Assembly: GCA_002720855.1 (NCBI GenBank)
Contig: PBIN01000001.1
Span: 62,001-126,000 of the forward strand
DNA from: Rhodospirillaceae bacterium
GTDB taxonomy: Bacteria > Pseudomonadota > Alphaproteobacteria > MPNO01 > UBA2964
Reading direction: 5' to 3'
DNA length: 64,000 bases
The position numbers were made by a program, and so were the translations under genes. A model generated the notes under the pieces. It did not search any database and was not told the origin of the DNA. It worked only from the letters and a program-made list of their open reading frames with translations. Below are positions 4,567 to 62,110 of the stretch, one piece after another. Position 1 is the stretch's first letter. The number at the start of each line of letters is the position of its first letter.

Positions 4567-5823
4567 ATGAGGAAACTTACAGGATTTACTGCACTAACCG
4601 GCCTATTGGCTGGCACGGTCGCGCTGGGAGTTATCGATACGCCGACCACCCTTGCCCAAGGTTTTTATAAAGGCAAAACCGTCAAAATGATCATTCGTTC
4701 CGCACCCGGCGGCGGTTACGATTTTTACGGACGTTTACTTGCACGGCATATGCCGAAATATATTCCTGGCAAACCAAAGTTTGTCGTCATCAATATGCCC
4801 GGTGCTGGTGGCATTGTCGCTGCAAATTATATGGCTAATCGGGCCAAGAAAAACGGAACGGAGATTGCCATTTTGACTCGTGAACTTGCGCTCGCGCAGC
4901 GGACTAAAGCCGTCGGCGTAAAGTACGACTTGAGCAAATTGAATGCGATCGGCAGCGCGGCGTCGTCGACCTTTATGATCGTTATGGGCAAAAATCAGCC
5001 GATCAAAACCTACAAACAACTGAAGGCCGCAAAAAAGACAATTCGGTTTGCGGCTACGGGCCCTGGTTCGGGCTCCTACCAGTATCCCGCACTCCTGAAA
5101 CAGGACGGATTCAATGTTAAAATAATTAGCGGATTTAGTGGTGGTCAAAACCGGTTTCTGGCTATTGAACGCGGCGATGTTCACGGTACAGCCAACAGCT
5201 ATGAGAGTACCCGCAAAGCAATTCAAGAGCTTGGCCTAATCCCTGTCGCCTATAACGGCGCTCCCAATGCTGCGCTCAAGGGTGTCCCACATATGGGCAG
5301 CCTTTTGTCGAAGCAGGGACAACAACTCGCTGCGTTGCTCGGTGCTCCATTGGCAGCAGGCCGTCCCTTCTTCACAACGGGCGGCGTACCCTCAGGACGC
5401 CTAAAAATATTGCGGTCGGCCTTTAAATCAGCATTGCATGATAAAGACCTGTTAAAGGAAGCAAAACGAGCCAAACGCAATGTCGCATGGACTGCTCCCG
5501 CCCTAATGGAAAGAATCAACGGGGAGATTTTGGGCGCATCTGACAAGGTAATCGCGCTTTATAAATCGGGCGCGAAGAAACCTAAGAAAGACATTTCCAA
5601 GTTTCTGCGTCACACGGGCAAGGTCACTAAAATCAAACGCGGTGGCCGACGTATTTGGATCTCCCATAAGGGTGCAGATGTGATGGCAAAAGTTTCGGGA
5701 TCCCGAACCAAAGTCACGCTCAATGGCAAAAAGGTGAAACGTAAGAAGATCAAAGTTGGCATGACCTGTAAATTCACCTATCCAAAACCCGGTAAAGAAG
5801 CCGCGATGGTGGACTGCAAATAA
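4567..5823 (+). CDS. tctC: Tripartite tricarboxylate transporter substrate-binding protein (TctC/Bug family) with a basic C-terminal extension
   Basis: The product is 418 residues with a signal peptide (MRKLTGFTALTGLLAGTVAL, cleavage likely near LAQG). Residues of about 30-330 carry Bug-family features: FYKGKTVKMIIRSAPGGGYD and the MPGAGGIVAANYM loop, which contact the carboxylate ligand. It should be the periplasmic receptor for the TctA/TctB pair downstream. Bug proteins are usually about 320-330 residues. This one has a tail of about 80 residues very rich in Lys/Arg, beta-strand-like, with two Cys (MTCKF, MVDCK) that could form a disulphide. The Shine-Dalgarno sequence AAGGAGG is strong but can be masked by an upstream complement. 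Confidence 0.9.
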   Translation: MRKLTGFTALTGLLAGTVALGVIDTPTTLAQGFYKGKTVKMIIRSAPGGGYDFYGRLLARHMPKYIPGKPKFVVINMPGAGGIVAANYMANRAKKNGTEIAILTRELALAQRTKAVGVKYDLSKLNAIGSAASSTFMIVMGKNQPIKTYKQLKAAKKTIRFAATGPGSGSYQYPALLKQDGFNVKIISGFSGGQNRFLAIERGDVHGTANSYESTRKAIQELGLIPVAYNGAPNAALKGVPHMGSLLSKQGQQLAALLGAPLAAGRPFFTTGGVPSGRLKILRSAFKSALHDKDLLKEAKRAKRNVAWTAPALMERINGEILGASDKVIALYKSGAKKPKKDISKFLRHTGKVTKIKRGGRRIWISHKGADVMAKVSGSRTKVTLNGKKVKRKKIKVGMTCKFTYPKPGKEAAMVDCK

Positions 5824-5881
5824 AGTGTCGGGGGGCGTCTTAACGGACGGCCCCTTCGTTTGTTGATACCGGGAGATCGTG

Positions 5882-7378
5882 ATGATCGACGCCGCCATTG
5901 ATGGCCTGCTTGGTATTTTGCAGTGGAAAGCGTTTTTGCTGATGATGGTGGGCATCGTCATCAGCTCAACGCTGGTTGCTATGCCCGGAATAGGTAGCAA
6001 AACGGCGATTGCTCTTCTTCTGCCGGTAGCGTTTGTGCTCAATAAATTTGAGGCGATTTGCCTGATAATGAGCGTCTGGGCGGTGAGTAACACCGCCAAC
6101 TCAATCACCTCCATTCTTTTTAGCGTTCCTGGCGGTGGTGGATCGCAAGCGACAATTATGGATGGTTATCCTATGGCCAAAAAAGGTGAAGCTGCACGTG
6201 CGCTTGCGGCCGCTTTTACCTCCTCAGCCATCGGCGGCATTATCGGCGCCATCGTTTTGCTCATAGCCATTCCTGTCCTGCGTCCACTGGTCCTTTTATT
6301 GGGGCCACCGGAATTCTTCATGCTCGTTATGGTCGGTATCGCCATGGTCGGTGCACTGAGCGGTAAGGCACCTGTAAAAGGGATTATTGCTGGCGGAATC
6401 GGATTGATCATCTCGATGGTCGGCGTTCATGTCATTACCGGGCTTCATCGCTTTACATTTGACCAGATATTTCTGATCGACGGATTTAAATTGATTCCAG
6501 TAACGATCGGTCTCTTTGCAATTCCCGAACTCATTTATATGGGCGTCAAAGGAACAGGGATTTCCGATTTACCCCTCGGCGACCTTGGCAAAGGTCGTAA
6601 GCAAGGCATTAAGGATGCGTTCACCCATCGTTGGTTGGTCTTCCGAAGCAGCCTTATTGGCGTTTGGGTAGGCATTATTCCCGGGCTTGGTTCAGCAGTC
6701 GCGGACTGGTTCGCCTATGGCAGCGCCAAGCAAACCTGCCCAGGTGCCCGTGAAACTTTCGGCAAAGGTGATGTCCGGGGTGTTATCGCGGTTGATTCCG
6801 CTACAAATGCCAAAGAGGGCGGGTCGTTGATTCCGACACTCGCCTTTGGCATTCCCGGTTCGAGCACTTTGGCATTGATATTTGGCGGTTTGATCATTGT
6901 TGGGATCACACCCGGCCGCGATATGTTGACGAAAGACCTACATCTGACTTTCTCAATGATTTGGCTTCTGATAATCGGAACAATCATTACATCCATATTA
7001 TGCCTTGCTTTCACACGCCAACTCGCGATGGCAACCAAATTGCGCCCATCTTTAATGATCCCCATAATTCTGGCGATGGCGGTAATTGGCAGTTTTGCAG
7101 CTGCCAGCCGTTTTGAAGACGTTTTGATAATGCTTGCCTTTGGCACCATTGGGTATTTCATGCGGGCTGCCGGTTGGCCTCGTCCACCATTGCTTCTCGG
7201 CCTGGTTCTTGGACCAATTGCCGAACGCCACATGTGGACATCAGTTCAACTTCACGGGGCCGAATTCCTTTGGCGGCCCGGTGTCCTGGTTATATTTGCG
7301 ATTCTCGTTGTTTGTGTGAGTTATCCGATGTGGCAAGACCGCAACTCAAAGCTCCGCGCCCGGGAAACAGAGGCTTGA
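5882..7378 (+). CDS. tctA: Tripartite tricarboxylate transporter large permease TctA
   Basis: This 498-residue polytopic membrane protein has the hallmarks of TctA: an N-terminal GIVISSTLVAMPGIGSKTAI motif, a second GIIPGLGSAVADWFAYG motif in the repeated half (the two inverted halves), and FGIPGSSTLALIFGGL. About 11-12 membrane segments are evident. It imports the carboxylate delivered by the TctC receptor using an ion gradient. The ATG at 5882 has GGGAG six bases upstream; a GTG immediately before it (5879) is an alternative. The intergenic stretch 5826-5856 could form an imperfect GC-rich stem that would separate tctC expression from tctA. Confidence 0.92.
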   Translation: MIDAAIDGLLGILQWKAFLLMMVGIVISSTLVAMPGIGSKTAIALLLPVAFVLNKFEAICLIMSVWAVSNTANSITSILFSVPGGGGSQATIMDGYPMAKKGEAARALAAAFTSSAIGGIIGAIVLLIAIPVLRPLVLLLGPPEFFMLVMVGIAMVGALSGKAPVKGIIAGGIGLIISMVGVHVITGLHRFTFDQIFLIDGFKLIPVTIGLFAIPELIYMGVKGTGISDLPLGDLGKGRKQGIKDAFTHRWLVFRSSLIGVWVGIIPGLGSAVADWFAYGSAKQTCPGARETFGKGDVRGVIAVDSATNAKEGGSLIPTLAFGIPGSSTLALIFGGLIIVGITPGRDMLTKDLHLTFSMIWLLIIGTIITSILCLAFTRQLAMATKLRPSLMIPIILAMAVIGSFAAASRFEDVLIMLAFGTIGYFMRAAGWPRPPLLLGLVLGPIAERHMWTSVQLHGAEFLWRPGVLVIFAILVVCVSYPMWQDRNSKLRARETEA

Positions 7379-7927: not shown

Positions 7928-9130
7928 ATGTCTAACGAAAATAAAAACGCCGAAGAAATTGATTTAAGTAAGAAATTTCTCGTCGACCCCTACGTTAACT
8001 GGTCAGACGGCGAAGGCATTCCGGTCCATCTCGATTTCGGGCACAACTTACTGGAGCTCGAAACAGATGTTTGGGACCGTTGGGACGCGCGCGGCTGTTT
8101 TGCACATACGCACGGACGTGGCGATTTCATGGCCAACTATGTCCTGGAAGTAGCACCAAGCAAGAAAACCGCGCCAATAAAACATATCTACGAAGCATTC
8201 TTCTATGTGCTTTCCGGGTATGGATCGACAACAGTAACAAATCCAGATGGCGAAACCCGTACATTCGAATGGGGCCCAAAAGCACTTTTTACAATTCCGT
8301 TGAATTGCAGCTATCAGATTTACAATGGTTCGGGACAGGAACATGCGCGTCTCTCCTGCACCAACGATGCGCCGCTTGTTTTGAATTTGTTCCACAACGA
8401 AGCATTTGTATTCGAAAATGACTTTGAATTTCCGGAACGGCTTGGCGACACCAGACATTTTGACGGCGAAGGCGATCACGTTGTCGTCAATCGCGGTGAC
8501 AATGTCGCGGAAGCGAACCTTTGGGAAACCAATTTCGTCAATGACCTGACAAACTTCAAACTCTACGCCATGGATTCCCGCGGCAAAGGATCTATGAACG
8601 TGGCATTTATTCTGGCTGACAGCACGATGCACGCGCATTCGTCGGAAATTCCAATGGGTCGCTACAAAAAGGCCCATCGCCACGCCGCCGGAACGCACGT
8701 CCACGCAGTCAGCGGTACCGGCTACACGCTGCTCTGGTACGAAGGTGACGAGGAGTTCAAGGAATTCCCGTGGGAACATGGCTTCATGTACACACCTCCA
8801 TTTTGGATGTTCCACCAGCATTTCAACACCTGCGATCAACCGGCGCGTTATCTCGCCTGCAGTATGGGAAGCCGTCGCTATCCCTTTATTGCTCTGCGCC
8901 GCAAAAGCGCCGAAGGCAAAGGTGCTACATCTATTCAGGAAGGTGGCCGACAGGTTGAATATATCGACCAGGACCCCCGAATTCATCGCAAATGGCTGGA
9001 GGCGATCAAAGAAACGGGGGTTAGCTCCAATATGGGCGATGTCTTTGACGAAGCCGAAATTATGGCATTACCACAGGAAGAACTTAAAGGCCCAATCAAG
9101 ACGCCACCGTCGATTGGTCCAGCGGTCTAG
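7928..9130 (+). CDS. Bicupin protein, gentisate-dioxygenase-like, metal site in the C-terminal cupin
   Basis: This 400-residue protein contains two cupin barrels. The C-terminal barrel has AHRHAAGTHVHAVSGTGY followed by PPFWMFHQHFNTCDQP, matching the HxH...H metal motifs of the gentisate/1-hydroxy-2-naphthoate dioxygenase superfamily. The N-terminal barrel (IKHIYEAFFYVLSGYG, then IPLNCSYQIYNGSG) retains one His and a Glu but lacks the motif-2 His. A ring-cleaving or other metal-dependent oxygenase role is plausible but the substrate is unknown. It follows the tctCAB operon by 59 bases. The protein at 12492 is a paralogue with a complementary pattern of metal ligands. Confidence 0.75.
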   Translation: MSNENKNAEEIDLSKKFLVDPYVNWSDGEGIPVHLDFGHNLLELETDVWDRWDARGCFAHTHGRGDFMANYVLEVAPSKKTAPIKHIYEAFFYVLSGYGSTTVTNPDGETRTFEWGPKALFTIPLNCSYQIYNGSGQEHARLSCTNDAPLVLNLFHNEAFVFENDFEFPERLGDTRHFDGEGDHVVVNRGDNVAEANLWETNFVNDLTNFKLYAMDSRGKGSMNVAFILADSTMHAHSSEIPMGRYKKAHRHAAGTHVHAVSGTGYTLLWYEGDEEFKEFPWEHGFMYTPPFWMFHQHFNTCDQPARYLACSMGSRRYPFIALRRKSAEGKGATSIQEGGRQVEYIDQDPRIHRKWLEAIKETGVSSNMGDVFDEAEIMALPQEELKGPIKTPPSIGPAV

Positions 9131-10103: not shown

Positions 10104-10127
10104 GCGGTGCATTAGTAGATGCACCGC
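10104..10127 (+). terminator. Perfect 9-bp hairpin between the endonuclease gene and the 457-residue gene
   Basis: GCGGTGCAT (10104-10112) pairs perfectly with ATGCACCGC (10119-10127) around the six-base loop TAGTAG. A run of five T follows at 10135-10139 after a short spacer, so it may end transcription of the endonuclease gene. It could instead be a leader structure of the next gene, whose Shine-Dalgarno lies about 20 bases further on. Confidence 0.45.
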
Positions 10128-10157
10128 ATCCGACTTTTTGATTTTAAAGAGGCACCT

Positions 10158-11531
10158 ATGCTTGATCTGATGAATATTGCCCGCACGGAAGCTGATGGCG
10201 GAGACTTATTTGGCCTGCTCAATGATTTGTATGAGCCGACCGACGTCCGGCCAAACGGTTATCCGGATGCTGTCGTCTGGAAGGGTGGGAATCACGACGG
10301 AACAGTCGAACCTGTCGCCCATTCCATGACGGACGCCTTCGCACTACTGGGTACGATGGCAGCGATCGATATTCTGGGATTGCCATTCTACGCGGTACCA
10401 ATGTGGTCCCAGTATCGGCATGATCACGAGCTGGAACCGCTAAGCTGGTTCGGCAACATGCCCTGCATCTCCATAAAATGGTCAACCGCCGGCGATGCCT
10501 ATGTCAATGATGGCAAAGGCGGAAAAGTCGTCGTGATGGGCAAGTCCGGCAATGCGCCACTTCGGACTCAAGCCGGTGTCTACTGTAACGTCCGTCCATA
10601 TGGGCCGATCACTGCTGTACGCTGTATGCCCTGCTTACCATACTCGCAAAATAAGGGAGTATTTGGGGTAAGCGCGGAAACAGGCCATATCCATTCAGAA
10701 ATGAATACTCCTGGTGTTCAACTTGCATACGCCAACCGCCTCTTCCTTAGAATGGTGCACGAGACCGGTCATCTTGGTCGTGTGGCAACCAAGCCTACAC
10801 AAGCGCAGGAAGACGGGATAAACGCTGGCCTCCATAGCTGGCTTCTTCAAGGCACTAAGTTCGAAGTAGGCCGCAAATATGCGGTCGATCCCTACGACGA
10901 GTTTAAAGAGGAAATCGACAAGATTATTGCCCTCCTCCCTGCCGACTTCAAAGACGGCATGGAAAACTGGGGTGGACGCATCGAACAACATATTTCAGAT
11001 ACAAATTATGGCCTTCTTGTATGGGACCTAATCGAACAGCGCGATTGCATTGTGTTGGCGACCGATCTGGATGGCGATCGTTTGACAGACCTCATGGCAG
11101 ATATTTCCGATCCGCTGCGTGCATTTGGTGGCCGTGTTGCAGAGCATCTCGGACAAGAGGTCGATATGCGGAAAGTTTGGTCGGATATGGGGTATACGAC
11201 AGGAAACGGCCGTGACATGACATCTGTAATGCATCGCATGGAAGGTCCGGCGATCCACGAGCAAACACTTGGTTCAGCCGACGCAATGCTATTGCGGTTG
11301 CTTGATGGCGACGAATGGGTTGGCGGCACGAAACAGCCCTACGATCCGCGTATTCACTTCGTCCTGATCAGAGATGCCTATCTCGACGCCAATAAAGGCA
11401 ATAAAGAGGTCGAGGCGTTTCTTGATGATGCCCTCGCGAAGTTTGATGACATCTATTACAGCGGAGACCGTCCTGGATTTCTCCAGGGTTACACCGCTTT
11501 AAAAGAAGCGATTTCGCCCTGGGGTAATTGA
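10158..11531 (+). CDS. Uncharacterised protein of 457 residues, no recognised domain
   Basis: I do not recognise this family. An in-frame codon exists at 10119, but it lies within a hairpin; AAAGAGG before the ATG at 10158 supports the later start (MLDLMNIARTEADGGDLFG). The protein is soluble with no signal peptide. It has notable Cys and His positions: YCNVRPYGP, VRCMPCLPYSQN, GHIHSEMN and MVHETGHLG. The HxxxH in the last motif and the CxxC pair could bind metal. A long mid-region alternates helix-like acidic and basic residues. It stands alone on this strand between the endonuclease gene and a convergent SDR gene. A role with the nearby cupin/EutA-like cluster is guesswork. Confidence 0.7.
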   Translation: MLDLMNIARTEADGGDLFGLLNDLYEPTDVRPNGYPDAVVWKGGNHDGTVEPVAHSMTDAFALLGTMAAIDILGLPFYAVPMWSQYRHDHELEPLSWFGNMPCISIKWSTAGDAYVNDGKGGKVVVMGKSGNAPLRTQAGVYCNVRPYGPITAVRCMPCLPYSQNKGVFGVSAETGHIHSEMNTPGVQLAYANRLFLRMVHETGHLGRVATKPTQAQEDGINAGLHSWLLQGTKFEVGRKYAVDPYDEFKEEIDKIIALLPADFKDGMENWGGRIEQHISDTNYGLLVWDLIEQRDCIVLATDLDGDRLTDLMADISDPLRAFGGRVAEHLGQEVDMRKVWSDMGYTTGNGRDMTSVMHRMEGPAIHEQTLGSADAMLLRLLDGDEWVGGTKQPYDPRIHFVLIRDAYLDANKGNKEVEAFLDDALAKFDDIYYSGDRPGFLQGYTALKEAISPWGN

Positions 11532-11547
11532 CGATAGCCGATCCCGT

Positions 11548-12333
11548 TTAGCGTTGCGACGCAAGCGTTATTCCGCGTCCGGCATCAGTATTGATAACCG
11601 CTCCCGTCATAACGGCTGATTGGTTCGACGCAAGCAACACATATGCCGCTGCGTGATCCTCCGGTTCTGTCTGCCGTTCCAATATATTTGTATGAGGACC
11701 GCCGGATCTCGCGGGCGTTCGGTCGGCGCCGGGTTCCAAAAGACTTTCCGCGTCAGCAAAAGACGTAGGCGTTCCGCTTGGTGCAACTCCGTTTACGCGG
11801 ATGTCCGGCGCCAATTCATGCGCCAGCGCCCTCATCAGACCAAGCGCAGCATGTTTGGAGGCCGTATATATTGGCCCGCTACCGACATAAAACGAAGATG
11901 TGGATAATGTTAGAACAACGCAGCCCTTGTTTTTGGCGAGCTCTTCACGCGCCGCCGCAGTCCCGATCATATATCCTTTGACATTAATGCCAAAAACGTC
12001 GTCAAACCCCGTCGTCAACTCGTGTTCGCCCATATCTTCCAACCGTTTCCGGCCGTCCCGAACACCCGCGTTTCCAACAAAAACATCCAGCCTTCCGTAT
12101 GTCGAAATAGCAAGATCCACGGCTTTTCGATTGTCGTCGAGATTTCGAACATCACCACACACAGTGGCAACGCGGTCTCCATAGGTATCCCGTAAGGCAG
12201 TCAAACGATCTTCAATCAGATCGAAGGCAACGATGCCTACGACGCCTTCTTCGATAAACCGACTGACAAGAGTTTTGCCAATCCCTTCGCCGGCACCAGT
12301 TATGAAAATGACCTTGTTCTCCAGCCACTGCAT
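11548..12333 (-). CDS. Short-chain dehydrogenase, cis-dihydrodiol dehydrogenase-like (BphB/HcaB type)
   Basis: This 261-residue classical SDR has the NAD motif TGAGEGIG at residues 12-19, GNAG in strand 4, catalytic Ser in LSTSSFYVG and YTASK as the Tyr/Lys pair. The stretch HELAPDIRVNGVAPSGTPT closely follows the pattern of aromatic cis-dihydrodiol dehydrogenases, which rearomatise the product of Rieske dioxygenases to a catechol. This fits the two Rieske oxygenases in the window, although neither is adjacent. It is divergent from the bicupin at 12492 and convergent with the unknown 457-residue gene. Confidence 0.82.
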   Translation of the reverse strand: MQWLENKVIFITGAGEGIGKTLVSRFIEEGVVGIVAFDLIEDRLTALRDTYGDRVATVCGDVRNLDDNRKAVDLAISTYGRLDVFVGNAGVRDGRKRLEDMGEHELTTGFDDVFGINVKGYMIGTAAAREELAKNKGCVVLTLSTSSFYVGSGPIYTASKHAALGLMRALAHELAPDIRVNGVAPSGTPTSFADAESLLEPGADRTPARSGGPHTNILERQTEPEDHAAAYVLLASNQSAVMTGAVINTDAGRGITLASQR

Positions 12334-12491: not shown

Positions 12492-13718
12492 ATGCCCCAT
12501 GACGTTGCGGGTGATCCGCATTGGCACGAACCTGGAAAAGACCTATATGCGGGTACGCCATCCTGGCCGCGTCTTGCAACGCCATATGACGATTTCATGG
12601 AAGCCCAAAATATCCCGATCATCCGGGAAATTGGCATCCCTAGTGTTCTAAATCTGCCGATGCGGCCTTGGGACTTTATGGGCGGACGTGGCTGTTTTAT
12701 TCAGCTTTTCGGCACGGAAGGCAAATGGGGAAGTTATCTCGTGGAAGTGCCTGGTGCCGGTGCATTGAAGGATAACAGACACCTCTACGAAGCAACCTAT
12801 CTGGTTGTTGAGGGTCGCGGCACCACGGAAATTTGGATCGACGGCCAGGAGCGGCCAGAAATATTTGAATGGACTCGTGGATCGCTATTCGCCATCCCAA
12901 TGAATACACACCACCGCATCGTCAATTCATCGGGAAGCCCGGCAATTTTGCTGGCCGGAACGACCGCACCAAACATTTTCAATCTGTTGCGTGACGAAGA
13001 GATTATATTTGGCTCTTCATTGCACATGAAGAAACGCTATGACCCAACGGGCAAAAGCTTTGAACCGTCAGAAGGGCTGCAACCTGACCCTGCCCGAGGG
13101 CTTGCAATGTGCCGAACAAACGTCGTCGCGGATGTTTTTACGACGGAACTCTATCTCGATAACCGGCGAACACCCGGCTATCGGCGGATGGAACCGCAAA
13201 TGGCTGAGAACGTATTTTACCAATACATTGGCGAGCACCCTCCCGGACGATACTCACGCGCCTATTCCCCCGGTAATGCGGCCGCATTTATTTGCATTGG
13301 TGGCAAAGGATACTCCTATACATGGCCACAGGAGCTCGGGCCAACGCCATGGCAGGATGGACAGGGAGACAATGTACTGCGTCAGGAATACGAAGAACTC
13401 AGCATGATTTCTGCTGCCCCGATGGAAGGGGACTGGTTTCATCAGCACTTTTCTACAGGGACGAAACCATTGCGTTTATTGGGTTGGTATGGACCAAACA
13501 ATCATCTTGCCCAACAAGCGGGCATACCAGGCGAAACTGTGGTGGACCCTGGCATGGTGGATATTTCCTATCCAGGGGGTGCGTCGATTCCATATTATCT
13601 TGAGGATCCTGCAGTACGCGGTTCATTTACCGATGCCATAGTGGCAGAGGGATCGAAGAACCATATGGAAGACAAGTTTTATGACAAGAATACGACATAT
13701 TCCTTCGCCGGTGGTTAG
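12492..13718 (+). CDS. Bicupin protein, paralogue of the 7928 gene, with metal motif kept mainly in the N-terminal cupin
   Basis: The 408-residue protein aligns along its length with the first bicupin. For example, RHLYEATYLVVEGRG corresponds to KHIYEAFFYVLSGYG, and DWFHQHFSTGTKPLRL corresponds to MFHQHFNTCDQPARYL. Its N-terminal barrel has His and Glu in motif 1 and NTHHRIVN in motif 2, so a metal site is plausible there. In the C-terminal barrel the HRH of motif 1 is replaced (SRAYSPGNAAAF). The two paralogues therefore seem to have kept different halves of the metal chemistry. The gene is followed by the EutA-like gene after 11 bases and is probably cotranscribed with it and the membrane protein gene. 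Confidence 0.72.
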   Translation: MPHDVAGDPHWHEPGKDLYAGTPSWPRLATPYDDFMEAQNIPIIREIGIPSVLNLPMRPWDFMGGRGCFIQLFGTEGKWGSYLVEVPGAGALKDNRHLYEATYLVVEGRGTTEIWIDGQERPEIFEWTRGSLFAIPMNTHHRIVNSSGSPAILLAGTTAPNIFNLLRDEEIIFGSSLHMKKRYDPTGKSFEPSEGLQPDPARGLAMCRTNVVADVFTTELYLDNRRTPGYRRMEPQMAENVFYQYIGEHPPGRYSRAYSPGNAAAFICIGGKGYSYTWPQELGPTPWQDGQGDNVLRQEYEELSMISAAPMEGDWFHQHFSTGTKPLRLLGWYGPNNHLAQQAGIPGETVVDPGMVDISYPGGASIPYYLEDPAVRGSFTDAIVAEGSKNHMEDKFYDKNTTYSFAGG

Positions 13719-13729
13719 ACGCTAAGACT

Positions 13730-15241
13730 GTGTATGATGAGGAAGAAGGCGGCCGTGTCGTATTCGCCGAACCTAAACGCAATCTGCAGAGTGCCGAAAA
13801 AACTTCGCTGGTGAGCGTTGGTGTCGATATCGGCTCGTCAACATCCCATCTTGTCTTTTCACGGTTGCGAATGGAACAGCGCGACGGAAAATATGTCGCC
13901 GCGGAAAGGCAGGTGATCTACGACTCCGATATTCTTCTGACGCCGTACACTGATATGCATACGATTGATGCGGAGAAACTTGGCGACTATATCGCTGGTC
14001 AGTATCGATCAGCCCAGCTTACGCCTGAGGATATTGATACAGGTGCGTTAATCCTGACAGGGCTGGCTGTACGTCGGCAGAATGCGAGGGCAATAGGTGA
14101 TTTATTCGCCGTTGAGACGGGGAAGTTTGTTTCGGTTTCGGCAGGAGACCGCATGGAAGCCGCTATGGCAGCATTCGGATCAGGCGCCGCCGATAATTCG
14201 CGAGAAGTTGGCGTCGCCGTTATGAATGTCGATATTGGTGGAGGAACCACAAAAATTGCCATTTGCGACCAAGGCAACATTGTCGCCCTCACTGCATTGG
14301 ATATAGGTGCGCGTTTGATATCCTTCGACGACTCAGGGGTAGTTTTACGGGTCGAAGAAGGTGGAAAACTCTTTGCAAAAGCTGCCGGTATCGATCTCTC
14401 TCCTGGCAACACAATCTCTACCGAGGAATGTGAAAAAATCGCCGAATGCATGGCGGATCGATTGGAAGAAATAATAACGTTACAAAGTCCGACGCCCGAA
14501 ACCGAAGCCCTGCATCGGTTGCCGCCAATTTCCTGGCGTGGTGACATTGATGCCCTCACCTTTTCTGGCGGCGTTTCTGAATTTATTTACGAATATGAAG
14601 AAAACGAATTCGGAGATCTTGGCCCCTATCTCGGGCACGCTATCCTTAGACGTGCCCAGTCCGCTGGATTTCGTGTTATGCCATCGGTGGAGAATATTAG
14701 GGCGACCGTCGTCGGCGCATCGCAATACACAATTCAACTTTCGGGCACGACAGTCTTCGTTTCCGATGAAGCTCTTCTTCCGCTTCGGAATATACCGGTG
14801 ATTAAACCGCGACTGGTCCTCGAAGACGAAATAGACCACAACGCAATCACCGCTTCGACCGAACAAGCGTTGGAGCGACTTGATCAGTCTGCCGCAGATC
14901 AACCTGTTGCAATATGTTTCGACTGGATTGGTTCCGCCAGCTTTCAACGGGTTGATGGATTCCTTCGTGGAATAGCAAGCGCCTTATCAATGCATTTAGA
15001 AAAGGGGCACCCTCTCATTCTCGTCTGTGAGGGCGATATCGGTAAGACTTTCGGCATCCACGTCCGTGAAGAACTGAAATTAACCTGTCCTATAATCTCA
15101 ATCGATGGAATTGCTCTGGAAGAATTCGACTATATCGATATCGGTGCTACCATCATCGCCTCCGGTGCAGTGCCCGTCGTGATAAAATCTTTATTGTTTC
15201 CGGCAACCACCGCACTTGGCCAGGAAGGAGCCGCATCGTGA
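13730..15241 (+). CDS. eutA: EutA-family ethanolamine ammonia-lyase reactivating factor (orphan)
   Basis: The 503-residue product matches EutA along its full length from remembered family sequence. It has an actin/Hsp70-like ATPase N-terminus (SVGVDIGSSTSHLVFSR), the second phosphate loop MNVDIGGGTTKIAICD, LTFSGGVSEFIYEYE, and a C-terminal DYIDIGATIIASGAVPVVIK. EutA exchanges damaged adenosylcobalamin on ethanolamine ammonia-lyase. No eutB, eutC or cobalamin gene is visible here, so it is an orphan and may serve a different enzyme. It starts at a GTG with a weak ribosome-binding site, 11 bases after the bicupin stop. Its last codons overlap the following gene by 4 bases (GTGA). Confidence 0.85.
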   Translation: MYDEEEGGRVVFAEPKRNLQSAEKTSLVSVGVDIGSSTSHLVFSRLRMEQRDGKYVAAERQVIYDSDILLTPYTDMHTIDAEKLGDYIAGQYRSAQLTPEDIDTGALILTGLAVRRQNARAIGDLFAVETGKFVSVSAGDRMEAAMAAFGSGAADNSREVGVAVMNVDIGGGTTKIAICDQGNIVALTALDIGARLISFDDSGVVLRVEEGGKLFAKAAGIDLSPGNTISTEECEKIAECMADRLEEIITLQSPTPETEALHRLPPISWRGDIDALTFSGGVSEFIYEYEENEFGDLGPYLGHAILRRAQSAGFRVMPSVENIRATVVGASQYTIQLSGTTVFVSDEALLPLRNIPVIKPRLVLEDEIDHNAITASTEQALERLDQSAADQPVAICFDWIGSASFQRVDGFLRGIASALSMHLEKGHPLILVCEGDIGKTFGIHVREELKLTCPIISIDGIALEEFDYIDIGATIIASGAVPVVIKSLLFPATTALGQEGAAS

Positions 15242-16053
15242 CATCAACTGAAGACAGCGACATTCCTAGTGCCACAAGAAACACTTGGATTCTGATCATC
15301 ATCGGGATTGTCGCATTTATAGGCCTGCTTCAAATCCCGCCTATTCCACAGGATCCCGCATTTCATTTGTTTGCGGATATCAGAACATGTCTTGGAATAT
15401 TGAACTTCGGAAACACTGTGTCGAATGCGGCATTTGCTCTGGTTGGTGCCTGGGGTCTCTGGACAGTTTTGGGTCCAACGGGTCAGAAGATTTTTCAAAC
15501 CAAAAAAGAAAGCTGGCCCTATATCATTTTCTTTATTGGCGTTGCTTTGGTGAGTATCGGTTCCGCCTACTACCACTGGGCACCGAATAACGAACGCCTT
15601 TTCTGGGATCGACTTCCAATGACCGTGGCGTTTATGGGTTTTTTTACGGCCTTTATTACCGACCGGTTAAACCGCCCCAGCGCTATTTCATGGATGTTAC
15701 CCACTCTTGTCGTTTTGGGTGCTGCCAGCCTCATCTATTGGTCCATCACTGAGGCGGACGGTCATGGCGATCTACGGTTCTACGGTTTCGTTCAATTTTT
15801 TCCGATTATTTTACTTCCGATCGTACTCATTTTGTTTCCCAAAGGCCACTATACGAGCGGTCTATATCTTTTATGGGTTATCCTCTGGTACGGAAGTGCG
15901 ATGGGTCTTGAACAACTTGATCACTGGATTTACGACCTATCGCGAGGCGCAATTAGTGGTCACACGATCAAACATCTATTGGCTGCGGTCGCAGCTTTCG
16001 TCGTGATCCGCATGTTGCAAAACGTCGCTCGGCGAACAGCGGATATCCCCTAA
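15238..16053 (+). CDS. Ceramidase-like CREST superfamily integral membrane protein
   Basis: This 271-residue protein has seven likely membrane helices. It carries CREST/alkaline ceramidase signatures: SNAAFALVG near helix 2, GSAYYHWAPNNERLFWDRLP (Ser, His and Asp metal-site candidates), and HTIKHLLAA (paired His) in the last helix. The superfamily are zinc-dependent membrane hydrolases that usually act on amide bonds of lipids. The substrate here is unknown. The start (GTG) overlaps the eutA stop, so translation is coupled; the linkage with EutA hints at an amino-alcohol-containing substrate, but that is inference. Confidence 0.78.
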   Translation: MTSTEDSDIPSATRNTWILIIIGIVAFIGLLQIPPIPQDPAFHLFADIRTCLGILNFGNTVSNAAFALVGAWGLWTVLGPTGQKIFQTKKESWPYIIFFIGVALVSIGSAYYHWAPNNERLFWDRLPMTVAFMGFFTAFITDRLNRPSAISWMLPTLVVLGAASLIYWSITEADGHGDLRFYGFVQFFPIILLPIVLILFPKGHYTSGLYLLWVILWYGSAMGLEQLDHWIYDLSRGAISGHTIKHLLAAVAAFVVIRMLQNVARRTADIP

Positions 16054-16105: not shown

Positions 16106-16131
16106 GCGGCCCCTGGAAATCCAGGGGCCGC
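16106..16131 (-). terminator. Strong rho-independent terminator of the TctC-like gene, usable in both directions
   Basis: A perfect 11-bp stem, GCGGCCCCTGG and its complement, encloses the loop AAAT. On the minus strand the stem is followed by seven T, as expected for the gene that ends at 16158. On the plus strand CTTCTTT follows, so it may also stop readthrough from the CREST gene. Confidence 0.85.
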
Positions 16132-16157: not shown

Positions 16158-17192
16158 TTAGCTTCCGCTGCCAAAGACCAATGACCGGACGCGTGCAACA
16201 ACTTCCGGAGATGTGTCTTTAAGAGCTTGAGCTACGATCTTCTGAATGGTTTCACCCTTACTGGCGATCAGACGAAGCTTACGTTTCTTCAGTTCTGCGG
16301 CGAACTTCGGATCTGCATTCATACTATCATACGCCGCACGGAGCGGTTTCTTTAGATAGTTAGCCGCTTTAGGCGGTAGGATCAGACCACGTCCAAGGGG
16401 ACCAGCGGATGCCAGGAAAGAGGCCAACGGCTTGTCTTCTGGTTTTACAAGTTCCGTGAACATTGGAACGTCTGGAATATTCGGGTCCTTGAAGAAACCG
16501 TTCTGCAAGATTGGAAGAGCAAAAGGTTTCTTGCCCTTAAACCAATGAGGAACCTTTGAACTCCAGGCCAACCAGTTAGGCGCCGTGAAATCGACTTCGC
16601 CCTGCTCGATAGCGAAGATTGACCGGGAAGACCCTTTGTAACCGGTAACCATTTTCAGTTTCAGACCCAAAAGCTTTCCGGCCAATACACTGAAAATGTA
16701 GGTGCTAGAGTTCTTGCCGCTTGTCGAACCAATGGCGGGAATCTTGCGCATATCAAGAATATGTTTGATGCCCTTGTCGGCACGAATAACGATCACGGAG
16801 TTTGTCTGGTTAGACGAACCAAGCCAAAAGAAGTCATTTGCGTTGTAACGCATCTTTTTTGGACGCAAGACCTGGTTAATAACCGTGTTATCCAATGGAA
16901 CCATCAGATTACGGCCTTGTTTCGGCGCAACATTGGCGAACCAGTTCATCGCCTTCGCACCGCCGGCACCCGGCATATACTGCATAATAAGATTAGGTTT
17001 GCCTGGAAGGTGGCGCCCTAAATGATTTGAGAAGCTGGAACCATATTTGTCATACGTTCCACCTGGACCATATGGAATGGTAATCGTAACAGTTTTGCCA
17101 CTATAAAGTTTTGTTAGCTTTGCATTGTCCGCCAGTGCCGGCATTGCGGTCACGGAAGCGGCAAGCGCTAATGGTAATACATACTTATTCAT
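16158..17192 (-). CDS. TctC/Bug-family tripartite tricarboxylate transporter substrate-binding protein (orphan)
   Basis: This 344-residue product starts at the ATG at 17192, preceded by GGGAGG. An in-frame codon 84 bases upstream would add a non-signal N-terminus and is rejected. The signal peptide is MNKYVLPLALAASVTAMPALA with cleavage before DNAK. The Bug features are TVTITIPYGPGGTYDKYG and YMPGAGGAKAMNW. No tctA or tctB is adjacent; it could use the permease at 5882 or one elsewhere. A strong terminator lies 26 bases after the stop. Confidence 0.9.
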   Translation of the reverse strand: MNKYVLPLALAASVTAMPALADNAKLTKLYSGKTVTITIPYGPGGTYDKYGSSFSNHLGRHLPGKPNLIMQYMPGAGGAKAMNWFANVAPKQGRNLMVPLDNTVINQVLRPKKMRYNANDFFWLGSSNQTNSVIVIRADKGIKHILDMRKIPAIGSTSGKNSSTYIFSVLAGKLLGLKLKMVTGYKGSSRSIFAIEQGEVDFTAPNWLAWSSKVPHWFKGKKPFALPILQNGFFKDPNIPDVPMFTELVKPEDKPLASFLASAGPLGRGLILPPKAANYLKKPLRAAYDSMNADPKFAAELKKRKLRLIASKGETIQKIVAQALKDTSPEVVARVRSLVFGSGS

Positions 17193-17585
17193 AATACCTC
17201 CCGAAGTAGGGTTGTTGCTTCGCGCCATCGGCCAGCGCATTCGTGAAGCGGGTCGATAAAGAACCGATTCCCGCATATTCTATGATGTACTCGGCGTATT
17301 CAGCAAGGCCTCAAACGGGATAAGGTTGATATGTTTACGCATCGAAATTCCGGGCTGAATCGGCTGAAGTAAGTTTACTCACGAAGATTTGTGCTCAGAT
17401 TCCCTGTGAATAGTTTGTCGAGCTCGCCCTAGCATACTTTCTGGACAGAGAAACTCAACTTTGTGCTGTCGCTGCGATCTATTCGAATAGTTCTATCGTC
17501 AGGTCGCCCATATTTCGGCTACCGATATCTGTTGCCGTTGGCTATCCTAATCATCTCTCATTCTTGTTCGTATGTTCGGCTTGAA
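17193..17585. other. Intergenic region between divergent TctC-like and RCC1-like genes
   Basis: These 393 bases separate two divergent genes and should hold both promoters. An open frame extends the RCC1-like gene upstream to 17463, but that extension is hydrophobic and lacks a ribosome-binding site, so it is treated as untranslated. No repeat, RNA gene or clear operator was seen. Confidence 0.4.
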
Positions 17586-18500
17586 ATGCTCAAAAAAGCC
17601 TTCCTGGTTTTTCTATTCTTAAACCTAAATACCGTGGGCGTTATAACGCCGTCGTGGTCAGATAGCTCATCCCCCCTGCTTGCCGCATATTATGACCGGC
17701 AGATGGCGATCGTAAAAGGCATCACCTACGCCTGGCGCGGTAATGACACACCAAAACCGATAGAACACACCGCAATACAGGTGGGTGTTGGCGATGACAG
17801 CAATTACATTCTTTCTACCGATGGAATCCTTATTCGCTTTGACAACGACAATTTCGCAAAACCGCGAATTCTGAGAAAAGACATTTTGCGTTTCGCCGCT
17901 GGAGACAGCGGTGTTCTCGCCATCGACAACGGCCATCGATTGCTTTGGGTTGGCGCCGGTACGCGCCGAGCAAACCTGATTGCCAAGAATGTCCACGCCG
18001 CTGCTGTTGGCGACAGTGCCAACTACTACATCACAAAATCAGGTGATCTTTTCGTCAAAGGAAAAGCCCATCGCGGTCAGTATGGAGATGGCCGCCTTGT
18101 ATCTACAGACCATTTCGTCAGAACGGCAACAAGCGTCGGCTACATTACGGCTCACACCGGACATGCAATACTTCTAAAAGGCAATGGCGATGTCTTCGGA
18201 ACAGGTGGCAACATCTATGGTCCTGTCGGCAAGCATGGCATCGGCGACAAAGCCGTTCGCTGGAGCAAGATAGTTGGTAATGCTACGGCAATTGCCACTG
18301 GGTCGTCTCATACTGTCGCTATTTTAAAAGACAGCAAGCTTGTCGCTTGGGGTAGCGAATATGGCACTGACCCTAAACCAATTATGAACAACGTTGTAGC
18401 GGTCGCAGCCGGATCAAATGCCACGATAGCCCTTAAAACCGATGGCTCACTATGGCAATGGGACCGCGGTGAGAGACCCCGAAAAGTTCTTCCAAACTAG
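17586..18500 (+). CDS. Secreted RCC1-like beta-propeller repeat protein
   Basis: From the ATG at 17586 the product is 304 residues, with signal peptide MLKKAFLVFLFLNLNTVGV. The rest consists of repeats of the RCC1 type: segments such as AIATGSSHTVAILKDSKLVAWG and VAVAAGSNATIALKTDGSLW recur roughly every 45-55 residues, giving a probable incomplete propeller. No enzymatic residue can be assigned; such proteins are usually binding scaffolds. An earlier in-frame start at 17463 is possible but would add a second hydrophobic segment without a ribosome-binding site. The gene converges with the arylsulfotransferase-like gene, 5 bases apart. Confidence 0.75.
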   Translation: MLKKAFLVFLFLNLNTVGVITPSWSDSSSPLLAAYYDRQMAIVKGITYAWRGNDTPKPIEHTAIQVGVGDDSNYILSTDGILIRFDNDNFAKPRILRKDILRFAAGDSGVLAIDNGHRLLWVGAGTRRANLIAKNVHAAAVGDSANYYITKSGDLFVKGKAHRGQYGDGRLVSTDHFVRTATSVGYITAHTGHAILLKGNGDVFGTGGNIYGPVGKHGIGDKAVRWSKIVGNATAIATGSSHTVAILKDSKLVAWGSEYGTDPKPIMNNVVAVAAGSNATIALKTDGSLWQWDRGERPRKVLPN

Positions 18501-18505
18501 TTTGG

Positions 18506-19552
18506 CTATACCCTACCACCGATCTCAGGTGACTCCGGGTCATAGCGCAAGGCTCTAAAAATTTGTCTTATCTTGCCATCCCCCCGAATATTTTCGTGGG
18601 GGGAAATGAATTCCCATACGATATCCCCTTCGGGGGTCACTTCGAACAGACGACCGTGACGCCCTTCGCAAATTAAGGTGTTGCCGTTCGACAGTCGTTG
18701 CGCGCCACTGACACGCGGTGAAAAGAATGTATCAACTGGTTCACCTTTGTATTCCCAAACTACTTCGCGAGTATCAGGATTAATTTCAAGAACGCGGGAG
18801 AATTCAGGATCGACCTGCTCGCTGCCATTGGCAAAGATCGTGATGTTGCCATTTTCAAGCTGTCTGGGGTCATGTTGGCCGCCCCATTCGCGATCCTCCA
18901 TCTCCCAAACCAGGTCTCCGGATTTGCGATCAATAAGCGCTATAAGATCGAGATCACGCCAGCTCAAAAGAATATTGCCATCTTTCTGAAGAAAGCACGT
19001 ATTCGCATGCGCGTATTCATGCCGAGGACGATTGCTGCGAATGGGATATTTTTGTTCAGGAAAACGATCCTTCATACGCCATTCCCAAACAATTTCGCCG
19101 TCCGGATTAACCTCCCGCAGTAGATCGTAATAAACCCCGCCATCCTCATGTTCGCTGCCGGGAATTCCACCCAGGCAGGTTGCTTCTTCGGGCGGGATAA
19201 GCTCCCATGCAAGATACAGTGTATTGCCGTTGGGGCACCGGTTGAAATCGTGGTGCTGCAGGTGATCAGTGTGCTCCCATATGATTTCGCCGCCCCAATC
19301 CATTTCCAACAAACGGCCACCCTTTGGTGCGATCTTCGGTCCCTCCGGGGTTCGCTCCGTTACAAGAAGATTTCCGTTGGGTAGCAGCTGTCCGTAATTC
19401 CCCAACTTGCCAGGCAGGTCCCATTTGTGAACCTCCTCGCCGTCCATGTTGATTAAAAATACTTCACTGCCGCCTGACGGCGCAAAAATCGTAAATCCCG
19501 GACAAGCGCGGGAGGGGTCATATTCAGTTATCCCAAATTTATAAGGACGCAT
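18506..19552 (-). CDS. Arylsulfotransferase-like beta-propeller protein (ASST family)
   Basis: This 348-residue protein has repeated propeller blades with the xxNGNTLxxxE pattern: LPNGNLLVTE, CPNGNTLYLAWE, LENGNITIFANG and LSNGNTLICEG. His residues HHDFN, HEYAHANTC and GGQHDPRQ lie where arylsulfotransferases place their catalytic and binding histidines. Bacterial ASSTs transfer sulfate between phenols. This one lacks a signal peptide, unlike the periplasmic E. coli enzyme, so function may differ. AAGGAAAA precedes the ATG. It probably forms an operon with the amidase upstream (gap of 66 bases). Confidence 0.7.
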   Translation of the reverse strand: MRPYKFGITEYDPSRACPGFTIFAPSGGSEVFLINMDGEEVHKWDLPGKLGNYGQLLPNGNLLVTERTPEGPKIAPKGGRLLEMDWGGEIIWEHTDHLQHHDFNRCPNGNTLYLAWELIPPEEATCLGGIPGSEHEDGGVYYDLLREVNPDGEIVWEWRMKDRFPEQKYPIRSNRPRHEYAHANTCFLQKDGNILLSWRDLDLIALIDRKSGDLVWEMEDREWGGQHDPRQLENGNITIFANGSEQVDPEFSRVLEINPDTREVVWEYKGEPVDTFFSPRVSGAQRLSNGNTLICEGRHGRLFEVTPEGDIVWEFISPHENIRGDGKIRQIFRALRYDPESPEIGGRV

Positions 19553-61360: not shown

Positions 61361-62110
61361 ATGAAGAGATTTTATAAAATTCTGTCATTACATGGGCAGC
61401 TTTGGGGGGCAGCTGTATTGCTAACAGTAATACCTCTCAGCACCCCGGCGATTGGGAATCCAAAACCATTGGGACAGACCGATCCTGTTTCCCTCTACGG
61501 TGAAAGAATCGTTTTTGATATTTTCCGCGATGGCAAAAACGTCGGAACACATGCTGTTGAGTTCAAAAAAATTTCCCAACGAAAATACTTGGTGCGTGCA
61601 CAGTTCAATCTGGCAATAACTTTCCTTTCGTTTCCAGTTTATGACTATCTCTATCAATCTGCGGCCGTTTGGGAAGATGGCCAATTGAGAACTCTGCAAT
61701 CCGACATCGATGATGACGGTAAAAAATCGTTCGTCCGGTTGAAAACAAAAGGCAGTAAAATTCATATTACTTCACCAAAATTTTCTTCGGTTATCGATAA
61801 TCCGGTCTTTCCAACCAATCATTGGAACTCAGGCGTGATCGGCAGCAACCGTGTCTTGAACACTCTTTCCGGCGAGGTCGGTACTGTAAAAATAATCAAA
61901 CAGGCTCGTGAGGAAATCCAGGCCGAAGGAGGTCTAGTAACTGCCGATAGGTATCAGTATACCGGTTCTGTAGAGACAACCGTTTGGTACGACCTGCGCG
62001 GCCGCTGGGTCAAAATGCGCTTTAACGCAAAGGACGGGTCCACTATCGACTACAAATGCGTGGTTTGTGGCCTTGGTGCGGAACCAAATTTAAATGGGGT
62101 GTCAAAGTAA
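61361..62110 (+). CDS. DUF6134-family secreted protein
   Basis: The 249-residue protein starts with an amphipathic region and hydrophobic segment (LWGAAVLLTVIPLSTPAIG), probably a signal peptide. It then has the beta-rich DUF6134 pattern: YGERIVFDIFRDGKNVGTH, FPTNHWNSGVIGSNRVLNT and VWYDLRGRWVKMRF. AAAGGGAAA precedes the ATG. The family function is unknown; the layout resembles outer-membrane or periplasmic lipid-handling proteins, but this is only a fold impression. It is followed directly by an SDR gene. Confidence 0.72.
   Translation: MKRFYKILSLHGQLWGAAVLLTVIPLSTPAIGNPKPLGQTDPVSLYGERIVFDIFRDGKNVGTHAVEFKKISQRKYLVRAQFNLAITFLSFPVYDYLYQSAAVWEDGQLRTLQSDIDDDGKKSFVRLKTKGSKIHITSPKFSSVIDNPVFPTNHWNSGVIGSNRVLNTLSGEVGTVKIIKQAREEIQAEGGLVTADRYQYTGSVETTVWYDLRGRWVKMRFNAKDGSTIDYKCVVCGLGAEPNLNGVSK

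Follow-up and report, generated by a model that had tools for sequence, protein, structure and literature searches.

EutA, the ethanolamine ammonia-lyase reactivating factor, exchanges the organic cofactor of its lyase, releasing spent cobalamin with ATP (Mori et al. 2004, as cited in PMC5821096). A EutA homologue is taken as a sign that an organism uses ethanolamine. Among cupin enzymes, the quercetinase QueD is a dioxygenase that is able to use nickel (PMC4416304), and the CREST superfamily is represented here by the alkaline ceramidase ACER3 (PMC3146951, PMC9436119). A locus that combines a two-domain cupin protein (bicupin), a EutA homologue and a CREST/ceramidase-type membrane protein lies in a 64,000-nucleotide stretch of DNA from a Rhodospirillaceae bacterium (assembly GCA_002720855.1, contig PBIN01000001.1, forward-strand positions 62,001 to 126,000), which is called the window below. 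The EutA homologue of this locus belongs to a taxonomically broad branch without a link to the lyase subunits EutB and EutC (EutBC). Sequence comparison suggests that this branch very probably serves the adjoining bicupin or UbiD protein and not ethanolamine ammonia-lyase. Literature searches, which did not cover most subscription papers, returned nothing relevant that links EutA to cupins, UbiD, gentisate, dioxygenases or nickel; the name EutA is also given to an ectoine-utilisation gene.

The EutA branch linked to bicupins and UbiD

The genes for the bicupin (positions 12492–13718, 408 amino acids), the EutA-family protein (13730–15241, 503 amino acids, GTG start) and the CREST protein (15238–16053, 271 amino acids, GTG start) all lie on the forward strand. 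The first two are separated by 11 nucleotides (nt), and the stop of the EutA gene overlaps the start of the CREST gene by 4 nt (15238–15241). An earlier note, made from the letters of the window alone, had read the same three open reading frames in this order and with this overlap, and its coordinates hold.

The window EutA protein matches PF06277 with an E-value of 2.4e-122 over positions 2–474 of 475. Its two phosphate motifs and its adenosine motif are intact (VGVDIGSSTS at 30, NVDIGGGTTK at 166 and FSGGVSE at 278), and the key glycines, D33, D168 and T173 are invariant across 52 relatives. Its AlphaFold2 (AF2) model matches PPX/GppA and FtsA with Z scores of 15–17.5. By profile, motif and predicted model, the protein is an ASKHA ATPase and not a P-loop GTPase like the nickel maturation factors HypB and UreG. 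No B12 diol-dehydratase reactivase stood among the 50 structure matches listed, a result that says nothing alone. Searches by sequence for solved relatives gave none of note for the EutA or the CREST protein and weak ones for the bicupin. The window protein thus resembles EutA in its full-length homology, its ASKHA motifs and the position of its gene beside a presumed client enzyme. It differs in falling below every NCBIfam EutA cut-off, with 349.1 bits against a best cut-off of 598. The paralogues in the source genome are likewise below these cut-offs, and the EutA proteins of C. difficile and E. coli are above them.

The source assembly (3.58 Mb, 98.2% complete) encodes four full-length EutA homologues. 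The earlier note had seen no lyase gene in view and had proposed a genome search for eutBC; that search, with a working E. coli positive control, found neither EutB nor EutC in the genome. The note could not see from the window that its EutA is one of four paralogues. A diol dehydratase search of the same genome gave no match; it had no positive control and excludes nothing. The four EutA genes are arranged as bicupin-EutA-CREST in the window, bicupin-EutA at locus L008, EutA with His-rich tails followed by a bicupin at L006, and UbiD-EutA-NicO-cupin and RidA at L007. The partner is therefore a bicupin at three of the four loci and a UbiD decarboxylase at the remaining one. A relative assembled as a single contig (G017, 4.15 Mb) also carries four full EutA genes, and no EutB was found in it. 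Across the order, EutA scores above the cut-off in 22 of 27 genomes (a few by a short partial match alone), and EutB is present in 1 of the 27.

Partner genes recur beside EutA in the order and beyond it. Within the order, the neighbour of EutA is a bicupin gene at 30 of 44 loci and a UbiD gene at 11, which makes 41 together; one of the three exceptions starts at a contig end. A further scan of genome contigs across phyla returned 79 loci with 88 EutA genes, seven of these loci being from genomes already counted in the order survey. It was seeded with, and ranked by similarity to, the window clade, so that its rates apply to this clade and not to EutA proteins overall. The taxa reached include Alpha-, Beta-, Gamma- and 'Delta'-proteobacteria, Chloroflexota including SAR202, Actinomycetota, Bacillota and Acidobacteriota. 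At 55 of the 88 EutA genes, a full-length bicupin gene of the same strand is no more than 400 nt away, upstream in 48 cases and downstream in 7. With four partial bicupins near a contig end and three UbiD genes, at least 62 of the 88 have such a partner. Of 50 genomes carrying a cupin-type EutA, 9 also have EutB. Alpha/beta hydrolases were the commonest family near EutA (13 of 78 scanned neighbours).

The recurrent unit is the bicupin-EutA pair and not the bicupin-EutA-CREST trio. The earlier note had considered the cluster a possibly undescribed system and had asked how often the order of the three genes recurs. It had named eutBC elsewhere with a eutA of its own, together with a lack of recurrent linkage, as grounds for refutation. 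For the pair, which is found across phyla, these grounds did not turn up; the trio does not recur as a unit.

UbiD decarboxylases carry an organic cofactor, prenylated flavin mononucleotide (FMN). UbiD-EutA operons occur at L007 (9129–11396), L153 and L156, and some of them have a NicO permease gene 10 nt downstream.

The cupin-linked proteins also form a lineage of their own. In a tree of 69 EutA sequences (quick IQ-TREE run, support from the Shimodaira–Hasegawa-like approximate likelihood ratio test, SH-aLRT), a branch with 100% support separates 17 EutBC-linked EutA proteins from 52 others, among them the window protein. Partners on the first side are of a different kind. In a 149-genome sample of the order of Paenibacillus thalictri, EutB was directly adjacent at all 30 best-scoring EutA genes, and in a phylum-wide sample around this species the same was found for five of five other EutA genes. 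EutB also directly adjoins the haloarchaeal, clostridial and Listeria EutA genes. In E. coli K-12, eutA lies within the eut operon, where a prophage parts it from eutB. P. thalictri itself has one cupin-type and one EutBC-type EutA, each with its own partner alongside. Proteins of the window branch thus differ from described EutA in having a bicupin or UbiD partner rather than EutBC, in their separate clade and, for some members, in His-rich tails. Public records label members of the cupin-linked branch as 'ethanolamine ammonia-lyase reactivating factor EutA' (for example, L210, 8992–10512). For these proteins, the label EutA is probably a misannotation.

The bicupin partner and co-variation of the pair

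The window bicupin scores 27.3 bits against Pfam Cupin_2 (cut-off 27.2), and its AF2 model (predicted local distance difference test score, pLDDT, 89.7) has a two-domain cupin fold. The closest solved folds are salicylate and gentisate 1,2-dioxygenases such as PDB 2phd and 3bu7, with Z scores of 20–20.7 (2phd 20.7), and oxalate decarboxylases are near at 19.3. The likeness to the dioxygenases extends to the surroundings of related clusters, which are those of aromatic catabolism. The cassette of P. thalictri sits with a LigX-like Rieske oxygenase, an acetaldehyde dehydrogenase and a 4-hydroxy-2-oxovalerate aldolase of the lower meta-cleavage pathway. At sister loci, EutA or CREST is followed by a Rieske/VanA-type oxygenase gene, which the window does not have. 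From fold and neighbourhood, the bicupin group is predicted to have a ring-cleavage role in aromatic catabolism. Unlike a close relative of the dioxygenases, the window bicupin is only 11–12% identical to them in structural alignment and has no NCBIfam match.

A second difference concerns the presumed metal site in the C-terminal cupin. An H-x-H motif is present there in 68–69 of 81 bicupin relatives; in 11–12 of the 81, including the window class, it is replaced by Y-x-P or otherwise lost. In the window bicupin, Y258-x-P260 replaces it and H317-Q-H319-F is kept. The Y-x-P of the window-class bicupins is conserved across the genus and a sister genus. The window bicupin thus departs in sequence from its relatives at this site, and metal loading should not be assumed for it because H-x-H is lost there.

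A second bicupin gene of the window (7928–9130) lies behind TctA/TctB transporter genes without an adjacent EutA. Its homologue in Phyllobacterium (72% identical) adjoins a EutA-like gene.

The distance matrices of bicupin and EutA are correlated with a Mantel r of 0.92 over 57 pairs. When partners were swapped within genomes that carry several pairs, none of 5000 draws reached this value and the swap mean was 0.57. Since no swap within genomes matches it, each EutA keeps to its own bicupin lineage. Such co-variation fits cognate partners; it fits plain co-transfer of a two-gene cassette too, and to that extent it is a point against a functional partnership. Under a co-transfer explanation, the two genes would travel as a catabolic cassette without direct contact of their products, and the ATPase would act on another pathway protein or in regulation. 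Cassette inheritance by itself can yield correlated distances, and the clusters contain many other catabolic genes. However, the pair is kept, in either gene order and across many phyla, while the other genes vary widely, and the homology of the ATPase is to an enzyme reactivase, which makes this explanation improbable. The earlier proposal that a EutA-type ATPase serves a different enzyme is thus well supported by the absence of EutBC from the genome, the bicupin linkage across phyla, the separate lineage and the co-variation.

Mode of action and the metal lead

In the proposed mechanism, a EutA-like ASKHA ATPase would be dedicated to the adjacent bicupin or, in other operons, to a UbiD decarboxylase. 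By analogy with EutA and its lyase, the ATPase would attach to the cupin enzyme and open the metal site using ATP. A correct divalent metal would then be inserted, or an incorrect or oxidised one taken out, and the catabolic ring-cleaving-type enzyme would stay active. That the ATPase loads or removes metal in this way, as the analogy suggests, is given about an even chance. In several lineages, nickel or cobalt is a candidate for this metal; a NicO permease would supply it, and the His-rich tails of one EutA subgroup would hold it. QueD offers a cupin dioxygenase precedent for such a metal in the bicupin. A EutA-like partner of QueD was not met in the literature searches made, which sets it apart from the bicupin cassette.

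His-rich N- or C-terminal tails are present in 9 of the 52 cupin-type EutA proteins, in four phyla and mostly in the subgroup of the L006 protein, whereas none of the 17 EutBC-type proteins has more than two tail histidines. Burkholderia sp. Ax-1724 has an additional His-tailed EutA. Nickel genes lie near several cassettes. In Phyllobacterium, NicO faces bicupin-EutA and NikR comes next; in Burkholderia, the order is EutA-NikR-NicO; in Caulobacter, NicO immediately precedes bicupin-EutA; and in Paenibacillus, NicO is about 12 kb away in the same cluster as the cassette. The UbiD-EutA-NicO operon of the source genus has a weaker NicO match (33.4 bits, cut-off 27.7). NicO was seen within 7 kb of a cassette in three genomes (L107, L145 and L100, the last one weak), where about 0.14 would be expected by chance according to a hand estimate from NicO counts in 50 genomes. 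These data make nickel or cobalt a possible, though not a likely, metal for at least some members of the cupin-type EutA family.

The broadest proposal is that EutA-derived ASKHA ATPases, with their ancestry among B12 reactivases, have across phyla become a metalloenzyme maturation system, devoted to inserting nickel (or cobalt) into ring-cleaving bicupins and some UbiD decarboxylases and to repairing them. As a whole, it is rather unlikely. Several points weigh against metal loading as the mode of action. The nickel linkage was spotted post hoc, and most cassettes have no nickel gene nearby. The window EutA, with 8 histidines among its 503 residues, lacks a His-rich tail and has no nickel gene in its vicinity, and the window-class bicupins are without H-x-H; the metal part of the model is therefore least certain for the window itself. 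Of seven high-scoring bicupin homologues in the source genome, three are paired with EutA, so not every such cupin needs one.

Several of these points fit a partnership of the same kind without dedicated metal loading. The ATPase would then be a conformational reactivase that clears product, a damaged organic cofactor or an oxidised centre, and the nickel genes would merely be neighbours in some loci. The UbiD partners at 11 loci of the order, with their organic cofactor, speak for it, as do the cassettes without a nickel gene and the lost H-x-H of the window class. True EutA also swaps an organic cofactor (PMC5821096). On the other side stand the His-rich tails and the occurrence of NikR and NicO beside EutA in unrelated lineages, and this explanation is likewise possible yet doubtful.

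Under metal loading and conformational reactivation alike, a EutA-like branch is tied to metal enzymes in apparent aromatic-degradation operons. Because this separate branch lies almost always beside a bicupin in many phyla, the data suggest a class of partner proteins, so far overlooked, that use ATP to mature or repair metal enzymes. Should the partnership prove real, ATP-driven reactivation of the EutA type would reach beyond B12 enzymes and include cupins and UbiD decarboxylases. It would, further, suggest a route to active forms of a bicupin family without an assigned function or a close solved relative, and the nickel hypothesis becomes directly testable.

The CREST protein and the surrounding genes

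The CREST protein scores 39.3 bits against PF05875 Ceramidase, above the cut-off of 32.5. Its residues S109, H113, D124, H242 and H246 have the spacing of S77, H81, D92, H217 and H221 in human ACER3. It is probably an active metal-dependent hydrolase, since all five catalytic residues are kept at this spacing. Unlike ACER3, the window protein and its counterparts were seen in this analysis solely as an extra component of a bacterial cassette of catabolic type. This add-on is lineage specific; CREST follows EutA in only four genomes of the genus, namely that of the window and three relatives. Bicupin-EutA-CREST was rejected as a functional unit on this ground, and CREST is best seen as an optional downstream hydrolase of the pathway.

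The earlier note had also offered that the CREST protein frees an amino alcohol for a B12-dependent lyase elsewhere, which the window EutA would reactivate. Membership in PF06277 and the intact CREST motif agree with this idea. It meets a nearly complete source genome without EutB or EutC, a relative (G017) without EutB, a separate EutA clade, and cassettes that nearly all have no CREST gene. It is therefore highly improbable and was given up.

Downstream of the CREST gene, a perfect 12-bp inverted repeat, gcggcccctgga-aa-tccaggggccgc, with A and T runs on its flanks (16106–16131), resembles a terminator. It is placed before a convergent gene for a TctC-type solute receptor (16158–17276, reverse strand), which is a conserved neighbour. 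Upstream of the bicupin, a divergent short-chain dehydrogenase/reductase (SDR) gene (11548–12333, reverse strand) encodes a protein that resembles cis-dihydrodiol dehydrogenases; it reaches 272 bits against NF004849, under the cut-off of 330, and its position is retained in most relatives.

Some minor observations concern related cassettes. Chromate-transporter-type genes recur near them in Caulobacter (L145, 9651–10247), Burkholderia (L222, 15781–16884) and Phyllobacterium (L221, 3094–4147), and an apparent one occurs in the Paenibacillus cluster (L224, 7076–7798); the Pfam check covered Caulobacter only. The P. thalictri cluster also encodes a rhodanese-like protein (L224, 341–1213) in which a His-rich tract spans over 100 residues. 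The bicupin gene near EutA in Burkholderia sp. Ax-1724 (L222, about 5371–6486) has one in-frame TAA in the assembly. In the window, positions 10119–11531 encode a 470-amino-acid protein with no Pfam match, whose relatives are 90–95% identical and occupy the same place. The locus is further adjoined by genes for an RCC1-repeat protein (17463–18500) and an arylsulfotransferase-like protein (18506–19552).

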